A stretch of DNA of 28,199 nt from a virus. Positions 1,661-15,404 of the stretch are shown here, in pieces. Under the pieces are notes generated by a model. That model made no database searches and was not told the DNA's origin. It worked only from the letters and a program-made list of their open reading frames with translations. The stretch is from positions 1 to 28,199 of the IMG/VR virus record IMGVR_UViG_3300031933_000228; one strand, 5' to 3'. Numbering within the stretch: position 1 is the first letter of the stretch; each line of letters starts with the position of its first letter. The position numbers and the translations under genes are program-made.

Positions 1661-4600
1661 TTACTTAAATCCAGTGAAGCTACGCAGTACGCGTTCAATG
1701 GTTTCTATGTTTGATCCGTTCGCTAAAGACCCAGAGGCATCGACATAGTTCTCAACTGAGTTAAGCTTAGCGTCGATTTCAGCTACAGCATCTTCTGCAA
1801 ACACAAAATGGGTACTCACTCTCGTTCCATTCAAGTCAGACGCTACTCTGACCCCGCGGCTTTACCCGCTGCCCTGGCTTTCACCAGGATACTAGACTAT
1901 ATCTTCACCCACTACACTGGCGTGCAGGGTGCTTCCCATTTGGGGCGGCCAATCGCTTGTCGCTCTACAGTGTGGCTAACACTTAGTCGTTGGACGTTCC
2001 CCCTAGCCTGTCTCCCGACAGTCCTTAGGGGCTTCGCTGCTGATCGCCCATTGTTAACTCGGGTTAGGTTTACGATCACCATACCGAATCCCCATACTTT
2101 TTTCTACTTTCGTAACCGTCGCAAATGCCCTTTAGAGCTGTGCTGTGGTGTTTGGGGCTTTAGGGTCTTCCAGTCAATTAGAGAAGGATCCAGCTGAACA
2201 TTACTGCCCAGTGGGACGTTGATTGGTAACAATCATTCATCGCCGTCGTACCTATTGTCCACTGTAGTCGCGACGCTACAGCCGGTGTGCTTCGACACCC
2301 GCCCTAGGCTTTCCCTAGGGAGCAGACCATATCTTGACCTTCAGCATTACCTGGTAAGGCCCCTCCCGTTTGGCAGGCGCTTGCCCGCTACTCCGCGCTA
2401 CCGGATGGCCGTTGAACACATCCCTTAGCCTTAGCCTTAGGGACTTCGCTGCGTCGGTTGTCCAATCCTTGAAGGTTTTTACCGTGCCCCTCACTTCCAT
2501 TACTGGGAGGGGTGTTACTCTCGGTTTCCCGGAGTAAGGGGTACTTCAAGGCTGTAAGGATTTTCCCGCAATTAGAGAGGATACCATACACAGTTACCCA
2601 TGTATGGGACTATCGCCACATATCGTTAACTAATATACCGTTTATATTGCAGCTGCCACTGCCATTTTCCAACATTTTATTTAAAACATACCCACTGACG
2701 CCCACTAACCTCGCAGCACTAGCTATGCTGACTAACTCAGCCATAACTACACCATCGGGGCCTGTTACTTTAAGTTCTCTAGCTAATCCAGACCTAATCA
2801 TGTCTTGCTGTATATTGACGTGCTGTGGCCATGGTGTGCTGTCGTTTTTAAACTTAAACTGCAGGCCGGGCGGCCATACCTTTTTACAGCCAGCTTTACA
2901 GCGGTTATTAACTGTATCCGCAGTAACGTTAAGTCTACTGGCCGCTTCAGATAAGCTGAAATATTCCACCACTTCGTCGGTATGACAGTCTCTAACCAGA
3001 ACGGATATGTTCTCATTCCGTAGGCCAGTGCTATATGCGTGTCTGCAATTTTCAGCTCTAGTTGCCCACTCTAAATTACCAAGACTATTATCAAGCTTAA
3101 TGCCATTTTTGTGGTTAACGTCCAGCTTATCTACAGATGGCTCATACGGAATATATGTCAAGGCCAGTAAGCGGTGTATTGGGTATACCCTTCTACCGCC
3201 AACATCTGGCTGCATGCCAACCATACTGTAACCAGCCTTACCTACATAAGTAGACAATGTCCTCTGTGTCGGTATGCTGAAAACCGTACCTGTTTCATTG
3301 ATAAGGTATCTAGATAGACCGGGAATAGATCTGTATCCCGTTAATTCGGGTAAACAGATACCAGAGTCGGGATATCTCCATACCAGGTTGGCTGGAGATA
3401 CGTTATTTGGATCGCCATCAAGATACAGCACATCCAATTTAAACCAATATTTAGTGGGCAGTGTCAAGTTTTTAGTGACGGCGTTTATTAATACCGCCTC
3501 ACGTATAAACATAATAGCGTCGCGATACCGTACGCTAAATATCCTTGGGTATCCATCTTTACTGGCCAATTTTGCCAGATTGTTATTTGAGATACTTATG
3601 CGTGACTGCGTATCGATGGTTAGCATGTTAAAGGGATATGGCAGTTCCTCTTTAACGGGTATTTCTCTGTACTTAGTTAACATTTTAGCATCCTACATAT
3701 TTAAAGGTATAGGATACTAAATATATGGTCTTAATCAGCGCCGAGCCCGGATATTGCAAATGGACTTACGATTGTAGTTGAGATAAATTCGCTTTTACCG
3801 ACAGTGTTTGGAAACTCAGGGAACACCTGTCCCTCAGATTCCAGCTCCCAGCTTTCATTATACTCGTTTAAAATGTGAGAGGTTACGGTAGAGCGTAAGT
3901 ATACGGTTGATGGATACGTGGAACCCTGTCCCGTTACGGGATAACGGGTAATATAGCAACGTACCCGATGCACGTACTGCTGGGCCTCAATATAGAAATA
4001 CTCCGCCCAGGTTAACGGGCGTACTGTAGAGACATCTTTATCCTCGGGTAACTCAGCGATTGAATCCAAAAGCTTGAAGCCTTTCTCATCCTGATAGACG
4101 AGTTTAAGGTAGTGACCGTTTACCATAATGGGTCGATGGCGACGTTCGACCTCACTGAAGGCTTTAATCAGTTTAGCTCGACCGGCTTCTGTGGCCCAAC
4201 TTACACGCTCAGTCTCATCTAGCTTCACCCGGTGTGAGGTAAGGGTTTTAGGGTCAATGAGGTAAGGTTCATAATCGGCTTCCGCAATTAGGTCCCGTGC
4301 AATGCCATTGGGCATTTGAAAGCCGGTCATAACCGGTTCGGTACCTTTAATGAACTGGTAGATCCCCACTTGGGTGGTGGTCAGGTCAAAACTGCGCGGC
4401 CCATCCAGATCAGAACCCGCTGGATCCATAGCTGAGATTACGTTGGCTGTCGCAAAGGCCACTCGACGAGATCCCCATTTAGACTGTAGGAAGCCTTGCT
4501 TGCCCCCTAACATACCCATGATGATCGTCCAGATCTGTTGGACGGAGGATTGGATAGACCAGCGCGTCGCATTGAGTACGGGGTCGTTCTTAAAGGCGAG

Positions 4601-5188
4601 GGCTTCTGAAATTCCGTTGGTAGCGGCAATCACCTTACGGTAGAGCTTATTGATCTCCTGCTCAACCGGACGATCTTGCTCGTCAATGTCCAGATCCCGA
4701 AGACCTGCGGGCATGACGATTAGAAAGTTAAGGACAGACTTGTCCCTGTACTTGTTGATGAGATCAATGACGATATCACGACGATAGGACTTCGTGCGGG
4801 GAATCTCGATCTCTTTAAAGTGCTTCATGAAGAAGGCATAGCCAGTTTCACCTTCGAGTACATCTGAACGTACGAAGTCTTTTAACTCAGCGTCCCAGAC
4901 CGCATATGCGCGGCCCTGCATAATGTCTTTATAAAGACTCTTTAGACGGGTAATATCTTCAAAGACCTTAGGGTGAAGAACTTGAGTCCGTAAGTTAATA
5001 TACCCATGGCGAGTCATACGACTATCACTGCCGACAGGGCCAAAGATTAGATCAGAGTAGAGTCCTGTAGGATGGAACTCTCGACCCTGCACAAACATCT
5101 CTAATGACTTAACGGGTAAGAGACCCGCAATGCGTTGGAGACGATTTTCTAGCAGGGCAATGTTGAAAGGTTTACTTCTATTGGACAT
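1661..5188 (-). CDS. Phage RNA polymerase beta-prime subunit, N-terminal part; three exons interrupted by two group I introns
   Basis: Proposed exons on the minus strand are 5188-3734, 2250-2235 and 1818-1661, giving about 542 residues. Exon 1 (485 aa) carries beta-prime signatures in order. MPAGLRDLDI with NKLYRKVI (about 160-190) corresponds to PPDLRP...LYRRVI. KWGSRRVAFATANVI (about 235-250) corresponds to GKRVDYSGRSVI. RYPVTGQGSTYPSTVYLRST (415-434) corresponds to the NRAPTLHR region. Exon 1 ends ...GLGAD and then runs into a stop at 3731. Joining GAT at 3734 to TAC at 2250 restores GADYDGDE, the metal-binding NADFDGD motif. Joining to 1818 gives DGDELSTHFVFAEDAVAEI, the same spacing as DGDEMNLHVPQSEETRAEL of cellular enzymes. 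The end is FTGFK-stop at 1661, soon after the active site, so the rest of beta-prime must be encoded elsewhere (phiKZ gp180/gp80 arrangement). The ATG has AGGGA about 8 nt upstream. The exon 3 junction is the least certain. Confidence 0.85.
1819..2234 (-). ncRNA. Group I intron 2 of the RNAP beta-prime gene (no ORF)
   Basis: A second complete core follows on the minus strand. The P element AATTGACTGGAAGACC is at 2164-2179 and Q GCAGCGAAGCCCC at 2028-2042. A P6-type stem CCCCTA...TAGGGG has an inner CTGTC...GACAG hairpin. R CAACGACTAAGT is at 1981-1992 and S AAGATATAGTCT at 1894-1905. P7 is GACTA with TAGTC. CCTGG(TGAAAG)CCAGG and GCGG...CCGC follow as P9 hairpins. A candidate P1 pairs exon TGAAT with guide GTTCA further downstream, leaving the required U.G pair at the splice site and placing the 5' cut after 2235. 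The 3' cut after G1819 is chosen by protein alignment; an alternative cut after GAT (2239), joined to AGA at 1822, cannot be excluded. No protein gene lies in these 416 nt. Confidence 0.8.
2610..3683 (-). CDS. HNH homing endonuclease with NUMOD-type DNA-binding repeats, intron encoded
   Basis: The 357-aa protein lies wholly inside intron 1, upstream of the ribozyme core, the usual place for a homing endonuclease that spreads its intron. A NUMOD4-like segment (about 116-170, YRSIPGLSRYLINETG) leads into an HNH_3 module: IHRLLALTYI at 169-178, DVNHKNGIKLDNS at 188-200 and LGNLEWATRAENCRHA at 201-216. H191 is the likely general base. Two helix-turn-helix repeats follow, FSLSEAASRLNVTADTVNN (242-260) and VSIASAARLVGVSGYVLNKM (318-337), matching NUMOD1. 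Residues 84-104 (DVLYLDGDPNNVSPANLVW) look like a decayed second HNH half. The start ATG follows AGGATGCTAAA, and that ribosome site is inside a hairpin. It likely cleaves an intronless allele of the polymerase gene; activity is inferred. Confidence 0.88.
   Translation of the reverse strand: MLTKYREIPVKEELPYPFNMLTIDTQSRISISNNNLAKLASKDGYPRIFSVRYRDAIMFIREAVLINAVTKNLTLPTKYWFKLDVLYLDGDPNNVSPANLVWRYPDSGICLPELTGYRSIPGLSRYLINETGTVFSIPTQRTLSTYVGKAGYSMVGMQPDVGGRRVYPIHRLLALTYIPYEPSVDKLDVNHKNGIKLDNSLGNLEWATRAENCRHAYSTGLRNENISVLVRDCHTDEVVEYFSLSEAASRLNVTADTVNNRCKAGCKKVWPPGLQFKFKNDSTPWPQHVNIQQDMIRSGLARELKVTGPDGVVMAELVSIASAARLVGVSGYVLNKMLENGSGSCNINGILVNDMWR
3684..3721 (-). promoter_or_regulatory. Hairpin sequestering the HNH ribosome-binding site
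   Basis: On the minus strand TTTAGTATCCTA (3721-3710) pairs with TAGGATGCTAAA (3695-3684) over 12 bp with one G.U pair and a 14-nt loop. The 3' arm contains the AGGA ribosome site and abuts the ATG at 3683, so translation from the long polymerase transcript should be blocked. This resembles control of endonuclease genes inside T4 introns. The AT-rich loop (CCTTTAAATATG) could hold an internal start site, but this is not shown. Confidence 0.6.
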
Positions 5189-5301: not shown

Positions 5302-8300
5302 ATGGCCAAGTATGACGATGATGTTGATTTTGACATCGATGACTTGGACGATCTCGATGTACCTGACATCGACATTATGCCAGACGACAGTGTGGCAGCA
5401 GATAACCGCACGCCCGCCACGCGTGTGGCGGACGGGGCACTCAAATCAGTATTACGTACCAGTACAGCCCGTACCGCAGCCCGTGCAATTAAAGAGAATG
5501 CACTGCCGGAAGGCTATAGCATGGCCATTGATGCCGCGGATGACGCGCTGTCCTTAGGCCAGGATCTATATGATGCGGCAGCCAAAGAACTCGAGCCTGC
5601 GGTCAAAGCGGCTCAGAAAATGCTCCGTAAAAGCCAGGAAAAGGCGGATAAATATCTACCTAAATGGTTGGCGGATACGGTTAAGAAGCTGGGTGGTGAG
5701 GCCGAAGAGGCGAGGCAGTACGTAGACCCCAATGAGTCTGCGATAGCCGGTAGCCTGGGCTCTATCTTTGATAAGTACCGTGAAGCGACTGCCCAGACAG
5801 CCGCAACAGAGGCTAACCTAGCGCTGGACGATAAGCAGCGCTCGGTGGATCGCAAAATTGCGATTGAGCAGGGCGATCGTCAGTACAATCAGCTTACCTC
5901 TATCAGTGAAGGTATCAGTAAGCTGGTAGGGTATCAGGAGTCGGTACTCTTTGACTACCAACGTAAGAGTCTGGAACTCCAACACCGTCAGTATTTCGCA
6001 GCCCGTGACCTGTTAACGGTTACCAAAGCGATGGCGGATCAGAACCTACACGAACTCAAAGCGGTGGTTAAGAACACCGGTCTACCCGAAGCTGTTAAGC
6101 TACGGCTCTCCGAGCAATACGGTCAGGTTGCGACCAATCAGCTCATTGGTCGGGTGCAAGGCAGTGTGCATGACTTTGTTGCGAACTACACCTCTGAGTT
6201 TCGAGAACGTGCCTTCAAGAAGATTACAGGCGCAGCCCGTGATCTTAAAGATGGTGTCCTCATGGGTGCCGACATGTATGAGCAGATGTCGGAGATGGGT
6301 GAGACCATGGATGAGGCAGGCATTGACCGTGCCCGGATGGCTGGCGAGCAGTTAGGTGCCATGGGTACGTCCGCAGCCTTTAAATATGGTGCTAGGTTAG
6401 CGGGTGACCGTCTCGTTACACGCAATAAGTACCAGGAGCGTAGTCGTCTAATAAAACTACTGGATCCCGATAACCGACTCTCTTCTCGTGCGGCTAAAGC
6501 ACTAGAGGCCCGCATTCAGCAATATGAGGCTTCCGGTGAGCCTTTGGATCTACAGGCTTTGACGGATAAAGAGAGTTATGAGGATAAGCGGGTCGGTGAA
6601 GAGATTGCGGAAACGATCAGCACCAGTTCAGGTCTCTTCGGTATACGCAAACGTAAAATCAATGCGCAGTTTAAACGCGTACTGAATGCAGGTGAAACGG
6701 TAGAGCGTGGCCGCTTCCTACGGGGCGCGGACACCATGCAGTACTTGATAGAGAACGCCCCTAAGGTGGCAAACGACTGGGCCCGTTCGGGGCGCAGTGT
6801 ATTCGATAACGTGGAGGTCGAGAATGAAACCCTACAGCGATTACTGGAATCTGGCGGCGTACAAGCCGTGGAAGACTTCATACGAGAACTGGCGCCTACG
6901 TTCAAGGAGTCCTTCAGCATTAATTCAAACCTGCATGCTGATGCAGCTAATGCCGTTGGCTTTGATCTACTTACCCGTCGTTCAATCATTGAGATTATAC
7001 CAGGCTATCTCTCCCGTATCCTCCAGCAAGTAACAACAGTTGCCACAGGGGAATCAGCGGAGCGGATTACCTACTCAACTGAGCGGGAGCAGTTTGTCAG
7101 TCAATCGACTCAGGATACCATTGTTGCCAGCCGACTATTTGACCAGCGCAATGTAGATAACCGGTTAAACGATGCAGATGCTGTTACGAAGTTGTTAGGG
7201 GGTGAAAACCTTGATGATGACGTTAAGGCCGCGCTGAATAGAAGAATCCTCCAGTTAAGGGATGATGGTAGTACACTCTCGCTGAACAATTTGCGTAAAA
7301 CTTCAGTGGCCGGTGAGGATGCCGGATTAACCGCAGCATTGGAAACGTTCTTAGACTCGGAGGATATTAACTTCGACTCTGAGAATAAAATCAAGCTATC
7401 CAGACTCTATGACCGTATCACCGCGATGACGCGGGAGGTCAACCAAGGATTGGCGGATACGAACAAGGTTGCGGATAAGGACACACTGTACCGCTTGGGT
7501 ATCGTGGATCCCAAAACCGGTAAGGTAGATGCGGCTAAGGTCCGAGCTTATGTGGATGGACGCTTGCGCCCGGGTACCGCAGGTGAGGACAGCACACTAT
7601 CAGACGCCTTTAACCCTAAGCCGGGTCCAGATAGTTCTCGACCGGAAGGGGGAGAGGGGCTCAGCACTACCGTTAACTATGTGACCGAGGCAACGGTTAA
7701 CTGGGATGACTTCACCCCACAACGTAAACTGCTGGTTGAAGAATTGTTCAGTCAGTTCACAACGCTGACCTCGACCTATGACGGCATACCTATCGCTGTA
7801 GATTTGCGCTCTGAGGCACCCCAGGGTACATTGGACGCCTCACCTACCCATGAGCGTTTAGACGCCATTTTAGACGCCATCAATGGCAATTTTGAAACCA
7901 ACCATGTGCTCTTACAAGCCGTTGCTGAAAATGCAGGTCGTGGGGGTGAGGGTGGTGACACTGTCTCGGTGGAAGAGATGGGGTCTGGGTTACTGGGCAA
8001 ACTGCGCTCTGGTGCAGGTAGCTTAGTAGGGATGCTGGGTAGCTACTACAGTTGGTTAGGTCGTACGTCTTTGAAGACCGTCCAGACGGCTAAAGATGTT
8101 GCTTTGGACGTGGGGGATCGGGTACTGAAGCGTACAGGTGCAACCGGTGTACGGGATATCTACGTTAAAGGGAAGCCGGGCGTTGTTATCTCCGCAAAAG
8201 GACTGCGTAACGGCTGGTACTTCGATGCTGAAACCAAAGCCCCCATCGCTACTATGGAGGACATTCAGGGCCCCGTGGTAGATCTGGATGGTAATTTTGT

Positions 8301-11300
8301 ACTCACCCAGGAAGACTATGACTTAGGGGTTGAGGACCGCTTCGGCAATAGCTTAATCGATGCCGGTAAGGGTCTGATGCGGGGACTGGGTAAGATTTAC
8401 GGCGCGCAGTTTGCACTTATGGGCGCTGTACTAAAGGCACCCATGGCTGTAGTGCAGAAGGTGAAGGATCGCTTCGACGGGGTTAAAGATGTCTATGTAA
8501 AGGGTGAAGGCACACCGCGTATGCGTGCACTGCTCATGCGCAATGGCGGCTACATCTCCAGTCGGAGTCAGAAAGTCATCACACACCAAGGGCAAATTGA
8601 CGGCGAAGTCTTAGACTCTAAGGGGAACATCGTTATTTCCTTGGACGATATTGAGACGGGACTCGTTGACCGGTGGGGCATTAGCATTGAGGCTAAGGGA
8701 CTCAGTGGGTTACTGGGTGGCCTGGCGGGGCGTGGCCTTGAACTAGGCGGTAAATTGCTAGGGAAAGGCGCTAAGCTGTACGGTCAATACCTGAAGGGTG
8801 TCGGCAAAGCTACCGCCGGTATAGCGGGTGGTATCTGGGGTGTTGCTAAGGAAGGCGGTCGACGCCTAGCCGGTGGCGGTGGCATGTCGCGTGAAGAGAT
8901 GATGGCGATGTTTCTGGAGATGCAAGGGGGCGGTGCCCCTGAGCTGGACCCCAGTGAACGTGAAACCTTGTCACTCTGGCAGAAGCTGAAGGATCAGAAC
9001 CTTACCCCTGATATGTTAAAGTCCATGGATTTGGATGAACTTAAAGCCCGCATACCCGATCTAAACATGGATGCGTTAAACGTAGGATCCATGGAAGAGC
9101 TCACGGCTAAACTCTCTGAAGTAGGGGAGTCTGTTCGGCAGGCGCTGACCGGTAACCAGATGGACATTGGTAGCCGTAAGCTACTGCCGGTGTTGGTTGA
9201 ACAATTAAATGTACAACAAGGTATCTACCGTCATCTGACGGGCGAGAGTTGGGCCAGTCCCGGTACCGACATTATCCGAGACAGCTACGACGACATCCTC
9301 TCTAACGATGATGATGTTGGTGGTTTGAAGGATACGGTTGCTAAAGTCACCGATAACTTCGCCCGTGAAGTCGGTAAGGAAGATGATGAAGAAGGTCACC
9401 GTGCAGGGAGCTGGCGAGATCAGCGATCTCAGTTGACCCCTGAAGAAGTCAAGGTTAAGGAAGAGGAAAAGAAAGAAGAGAAGGAGGAAAAGAGCTCTTG
9501 GCTTATGGACATCATCGGGTCACTCGGTGGGTTGTTCATGAGCGGCATTGGTGCGCTGGGTGATAAACTCATGATGGCGATGGGCATTAAGACTGCCGCC
9601 AGTACCGCCGGTGACGTACTGGGCGGTGCAGATGTCTTAGGTAATGCCAGAGGTACGCCACCAGGGGGTAAGAAACCTGGGCTACTGGGTAAGTCTTGGA
9701 ACCTGCTAAAACGTGGAGCTAAGGGTGCTGGCGGACTGTTAAAACGCGGTGCCTTGGCGGCTGCGCCATTACTAGCGTCGTCTAAGGTGGGTGCGGCAGT
9801 ACTCGCAGGCGGTGCTAAGCTCGCCGCCGGAGCCGCTGCGGTTGGTAGCGCGATTGCCGCTGCACCTGTAGGACTTATCATCGGCGGGGCAGTCGCGGTA
9901 GGCGCTGCAGCCTATGGTGGCTATAAGCTCTGGGATCATTTCAGGGACAATGCGGCACTGGAGCCATTAGAAGCCTTGCGCTTCATGCAGTACGGTATCG
10001 ACACAACCGATCAAGAGTTCATCGCACATGTCCGTCGCATTGAGCGTGAGTTCATTGACGATATAAGTTGGGAAGGTATGAAGGCTACCTTTAAAGGAGA
10101 CCAACAGGAGTACTTCCAAGAGTTCGGTGAAGACATGGGGATGGACCTCACCAACATGAACGATGCCACGGAGTGGCAGACTTGGTTCGTGAAACGCTTT
10201 GGTCCTATACTCTTAACGCATCTGACCGTCTTGAAAAAGATTGATGAGGATGTGGATGTCACAGATGTGGACGACGAACTCGATCCCAAATACCATGCGG
10301 ACTACATTAAGCGTGTTCAGATTACCTCTGAAGACGTAGCCTCTGGATTTAACCCATACGAGTGGGTTGCCTCCCCCTTTAAAGGACATGAAGTCCGTAA
10401 CATGGTTGAGGAGATTTCAGAGTACACTGACGTACTCCTGAAGGCAGCTGAAGCGGGTAACGTAGAAGATGTGGAGGTTGACTCTAAAGGTACCCTCAGT
10501 ACATTAATCAACGGAGCTAAGAAAATCTACGGTAATGTAGCAAAGGTAATTCCTGGCGTTGCGTTGATGGGTAAGGTCGCCAGCGGCGTCCATAGTGCAG
10601 TCAGTGCGGTTACCGACACGGTACGTGAGAAAGGTGTACTCGGTACCGCTAAAGCGGCTGCAAAGGGTATATTGGGATCCATACCTTTGATTGGAGGACT
10701 GTTTAAAGGCGACGAAGCGAAGGATGGGTCTAGTGGTGAGACGCCAAGTATGGATAAGTGGTTCTTACTACGCATGATGATGTACGGCTTTGATAAGGAT
10801 GTAGGGCCGGATAAAGTCAAGGCCATAGTTACCCTGGAAAAGCACCTTGCTAAGTATAAGAAGTTTATACGTGGCGACGGTAGCATTCGGATGGACCGTT
10901 TCAAGCTTCACCGTATGATGGCACCTAGTTTTGGATTAGCCGTGGATGACAGGGCCAGCACCATTCTGTGGATCGACTGGCTCACTAAACGCTTCATTCC
11001 AAGCTTTGTGCGTTTCCTACATGCCCTCAATGGTGCCACGGGTAGCGATTCGTTGGAGAATGTAGAAGCCAGGTTAGGTACACTGGATGAGGAGAAGAAG
11101 GCGGTCTTCCTGCGGCGGGTTAAAATGGAACACGTGCCTGTAGGAGCCACCCAGCATCCGTATGAAGTGAATTCTTCTCCCTTCATGGACACGCCTGTAA
11201 CCATTTTCAAGGATGAGATTAGTGCCTTCATCTCAACATTGGCAGCAGGTGAAGACGTTAACCCAACGTTAGAGGCTGGAGCTGGTGCTACTGGTGTGGT

Positions 11301-13293
11301 AAAGAAAGGCCTACTGTCAGGTCTATGGGATAAGGCCCAAGGCCTAATCGAGGGAGTGAAGTCTGGCGTAGCGACTGCGGTTGCAACCGTGCAGGAAAAG
11401 GGACTTGTAGGTGCGGCTAGTGAGGCGGTTAAGAAAGTTATCCCTGCAGTGGCCGAAAAGTTACCTGGGGTAGGTGCCGGCCTCTATATTGCAGGTAAAG
11501 TGGTAGAGGCATTCAAGCGAGATACCGAGGTAACTCCCATCGAAGGCCTACGGTTCCTGCAGTACGGCGTTAACCTTAAGGACGCGGTCTTTGTTAAACG
11601 AGTCCGTGAGCTGGAAATGTTAGCCCTGGATACCGTTACGTGGTCAGGTAAACGTGCTGAACTTTCGGAAGATCCCGAATACTTCTTCAAGCTAATGGCC
11701 GAGAAAATGGGAATGTCCTCCACTGACCCACTCAACGCCAAAGCCTGGACCACCTGGTTTGCGAAACGCTTCGTACCTGTACTGTTAACTCACCTCCAAA
11801 CACTCAAGTTGTTGGATGAAATTCTAGAGCTTGAGGAGGTGGATGTCCGCATGTCGGTTGAGTTGAAGATTGAGTATGTTAACCGTGTTCAGTTTACAGC
11901 CAACGATATTGCCTCTGGGAAGGACCCCTATGCGGTAACGGATAGTCCCATGTATGGTGTTACAGTCGAGAGTCTGCGTGAGGTGATTGCGGTATACACC
12001 AAGCGTCTGTTGGATACCCTGGCTAGGGGTCGCATAAATAATAGCCAGTCGTTCCTACCACCACAAGTGAAAGAGAATGACCGCGCGGTAGAATCCATCG
12101 CGCAGGCTAAAGAGACACAGCAGGCCATCGGTCAGCAGCGCAGTGAGGAACGGAAGCGGTCTTCTGGCACTAATCTCCCGGTCGAAACGGCTAAGGGTGT
12201 GGGCGCCAGTGCCATGGGCGAGGCGTCTAGTGGCGATGCACCGGATGCGGATGGCAATATGCCTGCAGGTGTGCCCGATGCACCCAGTAACATGAAGCCG
12301 TCTGGAGATGGCAGTATGCTCATGCCTGCACAGGGACGTATTAGCTCTGCGTACGGTCGCCGCATGCACCCAACTCGAAAAGAGATGCATGGACATGGAG
12401 GGATCGACATTGCTGCACCCACCGGCACACCGGTCTACGCCGCGATGGCCGGTACTATCTCTCGCCAGTACCGCAGCAGTAGTTACGGTAATGTTATCTA
12501 CATTAACCACCCTGATGGTCGCGCTACACGCTACGCTCACTTGAGTCGGTTTGCGGCAGGGACAGGGGCTGGCGCTGTTGTGAAGCAGGGCCAGATAATT
12601 GGGTATGTAGGGTCAACGGGTGTCTCTACCGGTCCTCACTTGCACTTTGAGGTGAGAGAAGGCCATGCACAGCGCTCACCCACGGCGGATCCAATGAAGT
12701 TTATTGGTCCGGCACGGGAAATGCTGGCTCAGCAAGAGAAGGAGGTCAAGGAAGCTGAGAAGGGCGATGATATTGGGGATCAAGACTTCTCCTTGGAGGG
12801 CGTTGATACCATCGCATCGACTACCCTGAAGAAGCCTGTATTGGCGGACGCAGGTATCTCCGACGATGACCCCAGTGTTAACGCAACGGCTAACAACGAC
12901 CCTGTAGCGGGCGCGCTGCCTGTTAGTCCTAAGGTAGGGCCTGGTGGAGTAGACGGTACCCTAACGGCTCAGACGGGCGGTACGGCTAACCTGCCGGATG
13001 TAGGGGCAGGGGCTGCCGGTGTGGACGTGGAGCGTTTAGTTGGCGAGCAAACAAAGCATGCCTCTGAAGCACAGCGTCTACGTGAACGTCAGGTCATGAC
13101 GCAAGAAGAAACCAATGCGAAGATGGATCGACTCATTGCCGCTATTGAAAACCAGCAACCTCCTCAGGTGAATGTAACCGCAGGAGAACCCAGTCAACCT
13201 AAAGGCACTAAACCCAATACGCCTGTTGGACAGCGTAAAGGGGATTCCCAAGGATCGGGATATAATGGTGTCGTTGGATTTGACTATTCATAA
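5302..13293 (+). CDS. Giant virion protein with peptidase M23 domain (probable tape-measure / tail-associated peptidoglycan hydrolase, phiKZ gp181-like)
   Basis: The 2,663-aa protein starts at ATG 5302 behind a near-perfect AAAGGAGGT. The N-terminal 700 residues are charged and helical. Two copies of a D(I/V)YVKG module lie at about 950-1035 and 1062-1145. A glutamate/lysine-rich stretch (about 1375-1400) precedes a long Ala/Gly hydrophobic segment (about 1480-1545). Three related 165-residue domains begin LRFMQYGIDT (about 1552), LRMMMYGFDK (about 1816) and LRFLQYGVNL (about 2076). The M23 endopeptidase domain (about 2335-2470) has the zinc ligands H2365 and D2369 in HGGID and HLH at 2446-2448, then a disordered tail. 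Length, helical make-up and hydrophobic segments fit a tail tape-measure role, with the peptidase locally opening the cell wall during DNA injection. The position next to the virion polymerase genes matches phiKZ gp181, a known virion muralytic protein. The 113-nt gap upstream is shared with the divergent polymerase gene. Confidence 0.85.
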   Translation: MAKYDDDVDFDIDDLDDLDVPDIDIMPDDSVAADNRTPATRVADGALKSVLRTSTARTAARAIKENALPEGYSMAIDAADDALSLGQDLYDAAAKELEPAVKAAQKMLRKSQEKADKYLPKWLADTVKKLGGEAEEARQYVDPNESAIAGSLGSIFDKYREATAQTAATEANLALDDKQRSVDRKIAIEQGDRQYNQLTSISEGISKLVGYQESVLFDYQRKSLELQHRQYFAARDLLTVTKAMADQNLHELKAVVKNTGLPEAVKLRLSEQYGQVATNQLIGRVQGSVHDFVANYTSEFRERAFKKITGAARDLKDGVLMGADMYEQMSEMGETMDEAGIDRARMAGEQLGAMGTSAAFKYGARLAGDRLVTRNKYQERSRLIKLLDPDNRLSSRAAKALEARIQQYEASGEPLDLQALTDKESYEDKRVGEEIAETISTSSGLFGIRKRKINAQFKRVLNAGETVERGRFLRGADTMQYLIENAPKVANDWARSGRSVFDNVEVENETLQRLLESGGVQAVEDFIRELAPTFKESFSINSNLHADAANAVGFDLLTRRSIIEIIPGYLSRILQQVTTVATGESAERITYSTEREQFVSQSTQDTIVASRLFDQRNVDNRLNDADAVTKLLGGENLDDDVKAALNRRILQLRDDGSTLSLNNLRKTSVAGEDAGLTAALETFLDSEDINFDSENKIKLSRLYDRITAMTREVNQGLADTNKVADKDTLYRLGIVDPKTGKVDAAKVRAYVDGRLRPGTAGEDSTLSDAFNPKPGPDSSRPEGGEGLSTTVNYVTEATVNWDDFTPQRKLLVEELFSQFTTLTSTYDGIPIAVDLRSEAPQGTLDASPTHERLDAILDAINGNFETNHVLLQAVAENAGRGGEGGDTVSVEEMGSGLLGKLRSGAGSLVGMLGSYYSWLGRTSLKTVQTAKDVALDVGDRVLKRTGATGVRDIYVKGKPGVVISAKGLRNGWYFDAETKAPIATMEDIQGPVVDLDGNFVLTQEDYDLGVEDRFGNSLIDAGKGLMRGLGKIYGAQFALMGAVLKAPMAVVQKVKDRFDGVKDVYVKGEGTPRMRALLMRNGGYISSRSQKVITHQGQIDGEVLDSKGNIVISLDDIETGLVDRWGISIEAKGLSGLLGGLAGRGLELGGKLLGKGAKLYGQYLKGVGKATAGIAGGIWGVAKEGGRRLAGGGGMSREEMMAMFLEMQGGGAPELDPSERETLSLWQKLKDQNLTPDMLKSMDLDELKARIPDLNMDALNVGSMEELTAKLSEVGESVRQALTGNQMDIGSRKLLPVLVEQLNVQQGIYRHLTGESWASPGTDIIRDSYDDILSNDDDVGGLKDTVAKVTDNFAREVGKEDDEEGHRAGSWRDQRSQLTPEEVKVKEEEKKEEKEEKSSWLMDIIGSLGGLFMSGIGALGDKLMMAMGIKTAASTAGDVLGGADVLGNARGTPPGGKKPGLLGKSWNLLKRGAKGAGGLLKRGALAAAPLLASSKVGAAVLAGGAKLAAGAAAVGSAIAAAPVGLIIGGAVAVGAAAYGGYKLWDHFRDNAALEPLEALRFMQYGIDTTDQEFIAHVRRIEREFIDDISWEGMKATFKGDQQEYFQEFGEDMGMDLTNMNDATEWQTWFVKRFGPILLTHLTVLKKIDEDVDVTDVDDELDPKYHADYIKRVQITSEDVASGFNPYEWVASPFKGHEVRNMVEEISEYTDVLLKAAEAGNVEDVEVDSKGTLSTLINGAKKIYGNVAKVIPGVALMGKVASGVHSAVSAVTDTVREKGVLGTAKAAAKGILGSIPLIGGLFKGDEAKDGSSGETPSMDKWFLLRMMMYGFDKDVGPDKVKAIVTLEKHLAKYKKFIRGDGSIRMDRFKLHRMMAPSFGLAVDDRASTILWIDWLTKRFIPSFVRFLHALNGATGSDSLENVEARLGTLDEEKKAVFLRRVKMEHVPVGATQHPYEVNSSPFMDTPVTIFKDEISAFISTLAAGEDVNPTLEAGAGATGVVKKGLLSGLWDKAQGLIEGVKSGVATAVATVQEKGLVGAASEAVKKVIPAVAEKLPGVGAGLYIAGKVVEAFKRDTEVTPIEGLRFLQYGVNLKDAVFVKRVRELEMLALDTVTWSGKRAELSEDPEYFFKLMAEKMGMSSTDPLNAKAWTTWFAKRFVPVLLTHLQTLKLLDEILELEEVDVRMSVELKIEYVNRVQFTANDIASGKDPYAVTDSPMYGVTVESLREVIAVYTKRLLDTLARGRINNSQSFLPPQVKENDRAVESIAQAKETQQAIGQQRSEERKRSSGTNLPVETAKGVGASAMGEASSGDAPDADGNMPAGVPDAPSNMKPSGDGSMLMPAQGRISSAYGRRMHPTRKEMHGHGGIDIAAPTGTPVYAAMAGTISRQYRSSSYGNVIYINHPDGRATRYAHLSRFAAGTGAGAVVKQGQIIGYVGSTGVSTGPHLHFEVREGHAQRSPTADPMKFIGPAREMLAQQEKEVKEAEKGDDIGDQDFSLEGVDTIASTTLKKPVLADAGISDDDPSVNATANNDPVAGALPVSPKVGPGGVDGTLTAQTGGTANLPDVGAGAAGVDVERLVGEQTKHASEAQRLRERQVMTQEETNAKMDRLIAAIENQQPPQVNVTAGEPSQPKGTKPNTPVGQRKGDSQGSGYNGVVGFDYS

Positions 13294-13295
13294 GT

Positions 13296-13324
13296 AAGGG
13301 GGCCCTGCCCCCTTCTTTCTTTTT
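13296..13324 (+). terminator. Rho-independent terminator
   Basis: AAGGGGG (13296-13302), loop CCCTG and CCCCCTT (13308-13314) form a perfect 7-bp stem followed by a T-rich run TTCTTTCTTTTT. It lies directly after the stop of the 2,663-aa gene and just before the next gene, so it probably attenuates read-through rather than ending the operon. Confidence 0.8.
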
Positions 13325-13346
13325 GATATACAGTAGGAGTCTAGCT

Positions 13347-15404
13347 ATGGCTACCCCCATCCCAGAGAGTGGAATACGGTCAGATGCCGACTGGATTCGA
13401 CAAGCTTTCTTTGTCCCCGGATTAACCACCAAAAACGGTATCGGTGGTGCAACGATACGGGATAGCGAATCTCGAGGCCAGCGTTTTTCATCTGCTGAAC
13501 TCAAATATACGGATACCACACCGGGTGGCAACTTTGCGATTAACCCCCGTCCACAATTTACTCGATATTGTGACCCTAAGGTACCGGGCATTAATCCAGA
13601 TAGCCGAGGTATGGGTGAATACTACTCTGAGGCTATTGATGACAATGCACAAATCGTCCATCTGCAATTTGGGGTACCCGAGTATAACTCCCTCACCAAC
13701 TTCTTTGGTCGTTTTTACGATACGGCGGTAGGTCGCTTAGCCAATACCGGCGATGCCTCTGAATTTACTTTCTTTGCGGGGCAAGTGGTGGGGTATGTAC
13801 TGACAGCACCCTTCCAGGTTGTCAACAGCGTCATTAACTTTGTAAAGCGTATCTGGAACTTTGTAAACAACACGCCCTATAGTCGGTTCTACTACATGAA
13901 ACCGGTTATGCCGATGTATTGGTCTACGGTATCTCATCTGTTGAACCGCATTGGTGTGAACATGGGGATTATAAATGGACCCACGCCGGATGACGTTACG
14001 CTGGACAGTGAGGGTAGTGCTACCAAGATTACGTATAACAATGGGTTAAGTGCCTCTGAGTTTGAAGTACTAAACCGGTTGTTACCCGACGTCATGGCCT
14101 CCGATGGCGGTATAGATGTCTTTGCAATTTCGACTCGCGCCCAGCGACTTGCGAATGCGCATTATAAAACCTTAAATACGTTAGAAAAAAGTTTTCGAGG
14201 TCAACCTAAAGAGCTCTTCGATAACGCCGTGTTAAGTTATGTTGAGGGGAACTTTGACCCTAATCCCCCCAGTAAACATCGTAGCTTACCGGAGTATCTG
14301 AATACCTTCTATAAAGGGGGCACCATTGGTCAAGGGGTCGGGGCGGATGACCCTCAGGCAGCTGTAGATGCACATGCGACCGAAGGCAGCGCCGCTGATA
14401 GTGTACCCGACAAGCAAAATGGAAAGGCTATGTCCGATGGCGGCGTTGAGGTTGCCCGTGCATGGAACGATCCGTCCATGAAGGACTACTTCGATGGGGA
14501 GTTAGCCGATGGCGCTGCCTTTGTAAGTTTTGCGGTGGACCATGAAGGTTCAGTGTCGGAGTCATTTTCGAATAGCTTTAAATCCTCCGATATTGCGGAT
14601 AAGCTTAACTCGATTAGCTCCTCTGGTCGATCTGCCTACTTTAACATGGCCGGTGGTAACATAGGGGACAATACCATTGTCAATGGCATTGAAAGTATGT
14701 TAGGGGGGATAAAGTCGTTCGTACAAGGGGCTTTAAATTCAGTCGGTCTTGGGGGACTCTCTGCCCTAGGGGGGGCGGCGTACGTCGATATCCCTGAGTT
14801 TTGGGACAGCGCCAGTGCGGATCTACCCAAGTCCAACTACACCATTAAACTGTCCTCGCCCTATGGGAACAAGCTTTCGATTCTACTGAACATTTATCTG
14901 CCGCTGTGTATGCTACTGGCAGGTGCGTTGCCGCGTACTACCGGTAAGAACTCTTACACCAGTCCGTTCCTGTGTAGCTTGTACGCACCGGGTCGTAACG
15001 TCATTAAACTGGGTATGATAGACAGTCTTTCCATTACCCGTGGTGATGATAGCATGGGGTGGTCAGCCGATGGGTTACCGACGTCGGTTGAAGTGAGTTT
15101 CTCAGTAGTGAACCTGTCTAAGATTCTACATGTACCGGTGTCAGAATTGGCAGGGCCTACGGACGCACTGAAGCTATCCATGATCGATGAGGATACGCCC
15201 TTCACGGACTACATGGCGGTGCTAGGTGGACTCTCACTCTATGACCAGTATTACATTGAACCCCGTTTGAAGTTAGCGTGGCGCAATCAAATAGCCGACT
15301 TTGAACGCTGGTTCTCCATGTCACACTTTGCCTCGCACTTTGCTGGTACAGAGACTATGGCGAACCGCGTCATAGGTCCTTTATATCGTGCTGGCGATCG
15401 ATAA
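13347..15404 (+). CDS. Probable virion structural protein, 685 aa
   Basis: I do not recognise a domain. ATG 13347 is preferred because TAGGAG lies 7 nt upstream; an in-frame TTG at 13323 sits inside the terminator T run and has no ribosome site. The protein has two hydrophobic stretches (about 140-180, GYVLTAPFQVVNSVINFVKRI within it, and about 515-535, ILLNIYLPLCMLLAGAL) and a Gly/Ser-rich middle. The C-terminal part (LCSLYAPGRNVIKLGMIDSL, then VEVSFSVVNLSKI) resembles the beta-rich style of tail and baseplate proteins. It is the last plus-strand gene before a strong bidirectional terminator and follows the giant M23 protein in the same direction, as the gp182 gene follows gp181 in phiKZ. 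A tail or injection-apparatus role is inferred from position only. Confidence 0.72.
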   Translation: MATPIPESGIRSDADWIRQAFFVPGLTTKNGIGGATIRDSESRGQRFSSAELKYTDTTPGGNFAINPRPQFTRYCDPKVPGINPDSRGMGEYYSEAIDDNAQIVHLQFGVPEYNSLTNFFGRFYDTAVGRLANTGDASEFTFFAGQVVGYVLTAPFQVVNSVINFVKRIWNFVNNTPYSRFYYMKPVMPMYWSTVSHLLNRIGVNMGIINGPTPDDVTLDSEGSATKITYNNGLSASEFEVLNRLLPDVMASDGGIDVFAISTRAQRLANAHYKTLNTLEKSFRGQPKELFDNAVLSYVEGNFDPNPPSKHRSLPEYLNTFYKGGTIGQGVGADDPQAAVDAHATEGSAADSVPDKQNGKAMSDGGVEVARAWNDPSMKDYFDGELADGAAFVSFAVDHEGSVSESFSNSFKSSDIADKLNSISSSGRSAYFNMAGGNIGDNTIVNGIESMLGGIKSFVQGALNSVGLGGLSALGGAAYVDIPEFWDSASADLPKSNYTIKLSSPYGNKLSILLNIYLPLCMLLAGALPRTTGKNSYTSPFLCSLYAPGRNVIKLGMIDSLSITRGDDSMGWSADGLPTSVEVSFSVVNLSKILHVPVSELAGPTDALKLSMIDEDTPFTDYMAVLGGLSLYDQYYIEPRLKLAWRNQIADFERWFSMSHFASHFAGTETMANRVIGPLYRAGDR

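Follow-up and report, generated by a model that had tools for sequence, protein, structure and literature searches.

Among the closest known systems to the protein analysed here are gp181 of phage phiKZ and gp239 of phage SPN3US. phiKZ gp181 is muralytic and has been listed as a needle-like puncturing device and putative trimer (PMC5380687). SPN3US gp239 (SPN3US_0239) was placed in the tail by mass spectrometry and named the tail tape measure (PMC10052503, PMC5694885, PMC7411985). Little is known about the individual parts that bring phiKZ-like phage genomes through the envelope. Many database entries label the gp181-family protein as a tail fibre, a record that the present result helps to correct.

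The window, the whole stretch of DNA that was analysed, is a linear virus record of 28,199 bases. Genes nearby code for parts of a multisubunit RNA polymerase, for a UvsX-like protein and for an internal head protein of the phiKZ type, and the window was therefore taken as part of a phiKZ-like jumbo phage genome. A giant open reading frame encodes a protein of 2663 amino acids containing three copies of a repeat unit, called U here. The features are as follows.

3731-5188, minus strand: RNA polymerase subunit in the position of phiKZ gp180, a conserved neighbour (phrog_2986, E=1e-148)
5302-13293, plus strand: giant tail protein of 2663 residues, orthologue of phiKZ gp181 and SPN3US gp239 (open reading frame and translation; phrog_3201, E=4e-206; gene order)
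9751-9906, plus strand: hydrophobic membrane-type segments, residues 1484-1502 and 1517-1535, right before U1 (Kyte-Doolittle windows)
9943-10476, plus strand: unit U1, residues 1548-1725 (profile E=1e-53; AlphaFold2 pLDDT 88.6, pTM 0.86)
10477-10737, plus strand: linker 1, residues 1726-1812 (pLDDT mostly below 50 past the end of U1)
10738-11262, plus strand: unit U2, residues 1813-1987, divergent and fast-changing (profile E=1e-36; folded in the model)
11263-11514, plus strand: linker 2, residues 1988-2071 (pLDDT mostly below 50)
11515-12048, plus strand: unit U3, residues 2072-2249, sister of U1 (profile E=1e-45; tree support 99/91)
12049-12321, plus strand: low-confidence linker from U3 to the enzyme, residues 2250-2340
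12391-12672, plus strand: M23 peptidase domain, residues 2364-2457 (PF01551, E=6e-30)
13323-15404, plus strand: gp182 orthologue (phrog_3181, E=5e-197)

The giant protein matched phrog_3201 with E=4e-206 in four stretches, the best covering residues 474-1719, and homology to this family extended across most of its length. Identity across the isolates was 17-30%. The gene order RNA polymerase subunit, giant protein, gp182 homologue was the same as in the 24 isolates fetched first, and the family arrangement, in which U precedes a murein hydrolase close to the C terminus, was found as three U and then M23. phiKZ gp182 matches PDB entries 9xqs and 11lx_H, and a solved relative of it carries the name "tail tube initiator complex protein gp203". 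By sequence and gene order, phiKZ gp181 and SPN3US gp239 are orthologues of the giant protein. Its assignment to the tail by homology is firm, and its tape-measure name is inherited from the SPN3US orthologue. The tape-measure trait of a very long tail protein with a membrane-type hydrophobic segment was present, with the tail location given by homology.

The giant protein has zero cysteines, as do 27 of the 65 orthologues tallied below, where the median is about 1 cysteine per 2,240 residues. A second internal repeat, a short D(I/V)YVKG... module, occurs twice (about 8119-8316, residues 940-1005, and about 8479-8691, residues 1060-1130), and both copies were also seen in the family consensus. 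Amid the RNA polymerase genes there are two tandem group I introns on the minus strand (1872-2240 and 2302-2644; Rfam RF00028, 68.9 and 60.5 bits, respectively) beside an HNH endonuclease open reading frame (2610-3683). HNH or intron annotations are found around the equivalent place in EL and Goslar.

The first-pass annotation had proposed three repeats of a 165-residue domain about 262 residues apart. The repeats are real: Smith-Waterman local alignment scores were 346, 120 and 101 for U1-U3, U2-U3 and U1-U2, respectively, while the best scores of the shuffle controls (500 per pair) were 50-58. All three units were also recovered by the profile search. A plain blastp self-comparison of the giant protein did not list the repeats, so the repeat claim is carried by the Smith-Waterman and profile results. 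The units start at residues 1559, 1823 and 2083 (nucleotides 9976, 10768 and 11548), giving spacings of 264 and 260 residues, close to the proposed value, and the unit length by profile boundaries was about 165-178 residues. The motif W..W..KRF.P was found literally in U1, U2 and U3; the late motif, described earlier with YPY, is in fact RV......(N/H/D)PY.(V/W)..SP. The linkers, described as Ala/Gly-rich, are only moderately so, with Ala/Gly shares of 31% and 35%.

The statement that no named domain has this pattern also held. Searches of the units against Pfam gave nothing above the curated cut-off (12 weak families in 72 units, the best being Gad1 with E=0.0026), and NCBIfam gave nothing above cut-off. 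The match to Gad1, a Gabija anti-defence family, was rejected, as U1 scored 17 bits against a cut-off of 27 and only three units matched. Searching the PDB by profile with U returned nothing significant. PHROG covers U just as an unnamed stretch of PHROG 3201. The unit folded confidently in AlphaFold2 with a 72-sequence alignment (mean pLDDT 88.6, pTM 0.86), and the predicted structure was mainly helical with a small beta hairpin. Foldseek of this model against the PDB gave a best match with E=1.5, probability 0.03 and TM 0.15. Against viral models there were ten matches below 1e-3, and the named ones (Ralstonia phages RSL2 and RP31 and Pseudomonas phage Psa21) look like family members. The near-invariant residues R, YG, E, W and RF.P mapped to the helices of the N-terminal part and to a long helix in the centre, and no catalytic-looking constellation of conserved residues was seen on the model. 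The model of all three units showed three confident beads with linkers mostly below 50 pLDDT and a whole-array pTM of 0.33; the linkers are probably flexible, because they were predicted with low confidence. The 50 PDB matches listed for this model comprised domains of the M23 type (LytM) and two alignments that were long but poor. U is a real, conserved and undescribed domain in a known protein family, and, judged from the prediction and one search program, it may have a new fold.

A profile grown from the three units of the window recovered U in 24 of 24 isolate orthologues. Orthologues from IMG/VR were gathered with two alignments, and U was present in all 65 distinct complete orthologues tallied, with one, two and three copies in 20, 42 and 3 of them, respectively. 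The tally excludes nine loci that were cut off, very distant or non-orthologous (L048, L050, L060, L079, L083, L084, L086, L087 and L088). The three-U proteins were those of the window phage and two close relatives, and three copies is a number absent from the other family members examined. The spacing of U across the family had a median of 247 residues. A 3842-residue open-ended relative (L083/L084) gave a number of weak matches to parts of U and may carry a distant array.

The family has a fixed order of a long N-terminal part, a hydrophobic segment, the U array and a swappable murein hydrolase. In 52 of 65 orthologues (random expectation 2.9) the first U was preceded, within 70 residues, by a hydrophobic 19-residue segment, with a gap of 0-28 residues and a median of 14. 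No above-threshold hydrophobic segment was found near U in the other 13, which include phiKZ and EL. The enzyme after the array was M23, SLT, GH19 or none detected. On a tree of the N-terminal part, made by a quick search and with long branches, the enzyme state switched 11 times while U was retained. One swap separates the sisters LucasX (SLT) and L040 (GH19), and the clade of the window protein holds M23 and enzyme-less proteins with support 97. Six orthologues (L033, L036, L041, L043, L051 and L080) had one U and no murein hydrolase by Pfam, nor was one detected in the two genes that follow in L033 and L041. Since U is kept in enzyme-less proteins, it is not solely an enzyme carrier. The idea that a second U always goes with a glycosidase was rejected; the trend is strong, with exceptions in L064 (two U, M23) and in FLC6, L063, L067 and L068 (one U, glycosidase).

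In the unit-core trees all second copies formed one group (support 100/99, and 96 in the other tree), and U1 and U3 were sisters (99/91). An origin of U3 from the second-copy (B) type was rejected (AU p=0.029), while joining U2 to the second copies was not rejected (AU p=0.26). The three window units and all single copies scored higher with the first-copy profile than with the second-copy profile, U2 by 25 bits. The trees and profile scores together argue that at least one extra copy was added by a separate amplification; one U is the usual number among the other members of this lineage. Between the window phage and its nearest relative, identity was 95% for U1 and 45-46% for U2. Compared with the nearer close relative, most of the N-terminal half and the C-terminal end had a dS of 0.09-0.13 and the M23 part 0.19, but dS rose to 0.63 in U1 and approached or reached saturation in U2 and U3. 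Synonymous divergence was also high in a second block, residues 701-840 (7402-7821), outside the U array, in comparison with relatives L031 and L032. That synonymous divergence is raised only in these blocks indicates replacement by recombination, the U array having been swapped as a cassette between close relatives. In U1 and U3, dN/dS was about 0.04-0.05 where dS was measurable, a sign of strong purifying selection, and U2 had changed far more. Positive selection behind the divergence of U2 was not supported, since synonymous sites are saturated there too; this saturation points to recombination from a diverged relative together with looser constraint on U2.

Our favoured reading, to which we give about an even chance, is that U is an ancestral family-specific folded domain that serves as a periplasmic, bead-like docking or spacer module between the membrane-inserting part and the lytic tip. 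This reading is favoured by the family-wide presence of U and the fixed order, by the repeated enzyme swaps with U retained, by the separately folded beads, by the tail location of SPN3US gp239, by the muralytic activity of phiKZ gp181 and by the relationship of gp182 to a tail tube initiator protein. In the virion, the beads and the enzyme would sit distally in the tail tube, close to the initiator complex of the gp182 type. Having the lytic tip, the flexible beads and the membrane-type segment in series suggests an order of ejection: the enzyme would lead and open the murein, the hydrophobic segment would insert into the inner membrane, and the beads would bridge the periplasm between them or dock there. 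U would thus act as a spacer and would probably also offer a contact site to an envelope or hub protein, and a third copy would give a longer flexible arm, not a longer tail. The computed minimum diameter of a 20 kDa bead is about 3.6 nm and the reported inner diameter of the phiKZ tail is 4.5 nm (PMC13282480), so the beads could pass singly. A precedent for envelope docking comes from lambda, whose tape measure touches inner-membrane ManYZ at injection; dependence on ManYZ correlates with a segment of the tape measure (PMC13190303). Against the docking and spacer module stand the six orthologues that keep U without a detected enzyme, the 13 of 65 orthologues lacking an above-threshold hydrophobic segment near U, and the needle-like trimer described for phiKZ gp181, which is another geometry. 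A bolder form, in which U has a new fold and is dedicated to entry, docking on an envelope protein while the adjacent segment opens the inner membrane, with entry tuned by adding, losing or exchanging beads as cassettes, seems unlikely to us. A conserved domain without a solved relative, usually lying between a membrane-type segment and a lysin, is a concrete piece to delete or to solve.

The alternative that survives best, although we hold it to be rather doubtful, is that U forms a rigid, trimeric element of the baseplate hub or needle, which holds the lytic tip in the hub and is not extruded. The published description of phiKZ gp181 as a needle-like putative trimer (PMC5380687) and the relationship of the neighbouring gp182 to a tail tube initiator protein agree with such a role; low-confidence linkers and a copy number of 1-3 suit a rigid ring poorly. 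Furthermore, the PDB copy searched has phiKZ gp182 but no chain of the gp181 family beyond the enzyme domain, which means that no ordered U has been deposited there.

It is less probable still that U binds a putative host factor of the inner membrane or periplasm, with exchange and copy number reflecting host adaptation. Exchange of the array between otherwise near-identical phages, the tolerance of U2 to much change and the lambda tape-measure segments that go with inner-membrane partners (PMC13190303) are consistent with it, but U1 and U3 are under strong purifying selection, and the similar exchange block at residues 701-840 lies far from U.

The suggestion of the first-pass annotation that regular spacing could set a length, making the array a tail-length ruler, did not survive and is very improbable. 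The spacing is indeed regular, and an orthologue of the giant protein is published as a tape measure (PMC10052503). However, in a sample of five, phages with one U (BONAISHI, 190 nm) and two U (phiKZ, PhiPA3, OBP and EL, 185-200 nm) have similar tails (PMC6207643, PMC5348500, PMC13282480), the part before U in these phages (about 1357-1518 residues) is already enough at 0.13-0.15 nm per residue, and the linkers are probably flexible. A tail of 240 nm was reported for pVa-21, which has two U (PMC12685585), indicating that tail lengths from electron microscopy are noisy. Finally, that U directs the enzyme to its target by binding peptidoglycan or polysaccharide is hardly credible, because U, although it directly precedes murein hydrolases, occurs without a detected enzyme, is kept across three unrelated enzyme classes and matches no known binding domain.

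Compared with known systems, phiKZ gp181 (NP_803747), a tail-associated peptidoglycan hydrolase, is orthologous by position (between the gp180 RNA polymerase subunit and gp182) and by sequence. It has two U (residues 1358-1528 and 1596-1771) and an SLT transglycosylase, whereas the window protein has three U and M23, and, unlike the window protein, it lacks an above-threshold hydrophobic segment. Tape measures with fused lysins (T5 pb2, TM4 and phiIPLA35) likewise combine a long tail protein, a hydrophobic segment and a lytic domain; we know of no U-type domain in them. SPN3US gp239 (259 kDa), in the orthologous position, has two U (about residues 1442-1591 and 1691-1855) compared with three in the window, and the consulted passages on it do not mention U. 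The closest isolates are Vibrio phages BONAISHI, Yong XC31, pir03 and sm033, whose giant protein has M23 and an A-like U as in the window, but only one U and 1830-1919 residues compared with 2663. The protein family was thus known, and what is new is the description of the domain and its copy number.
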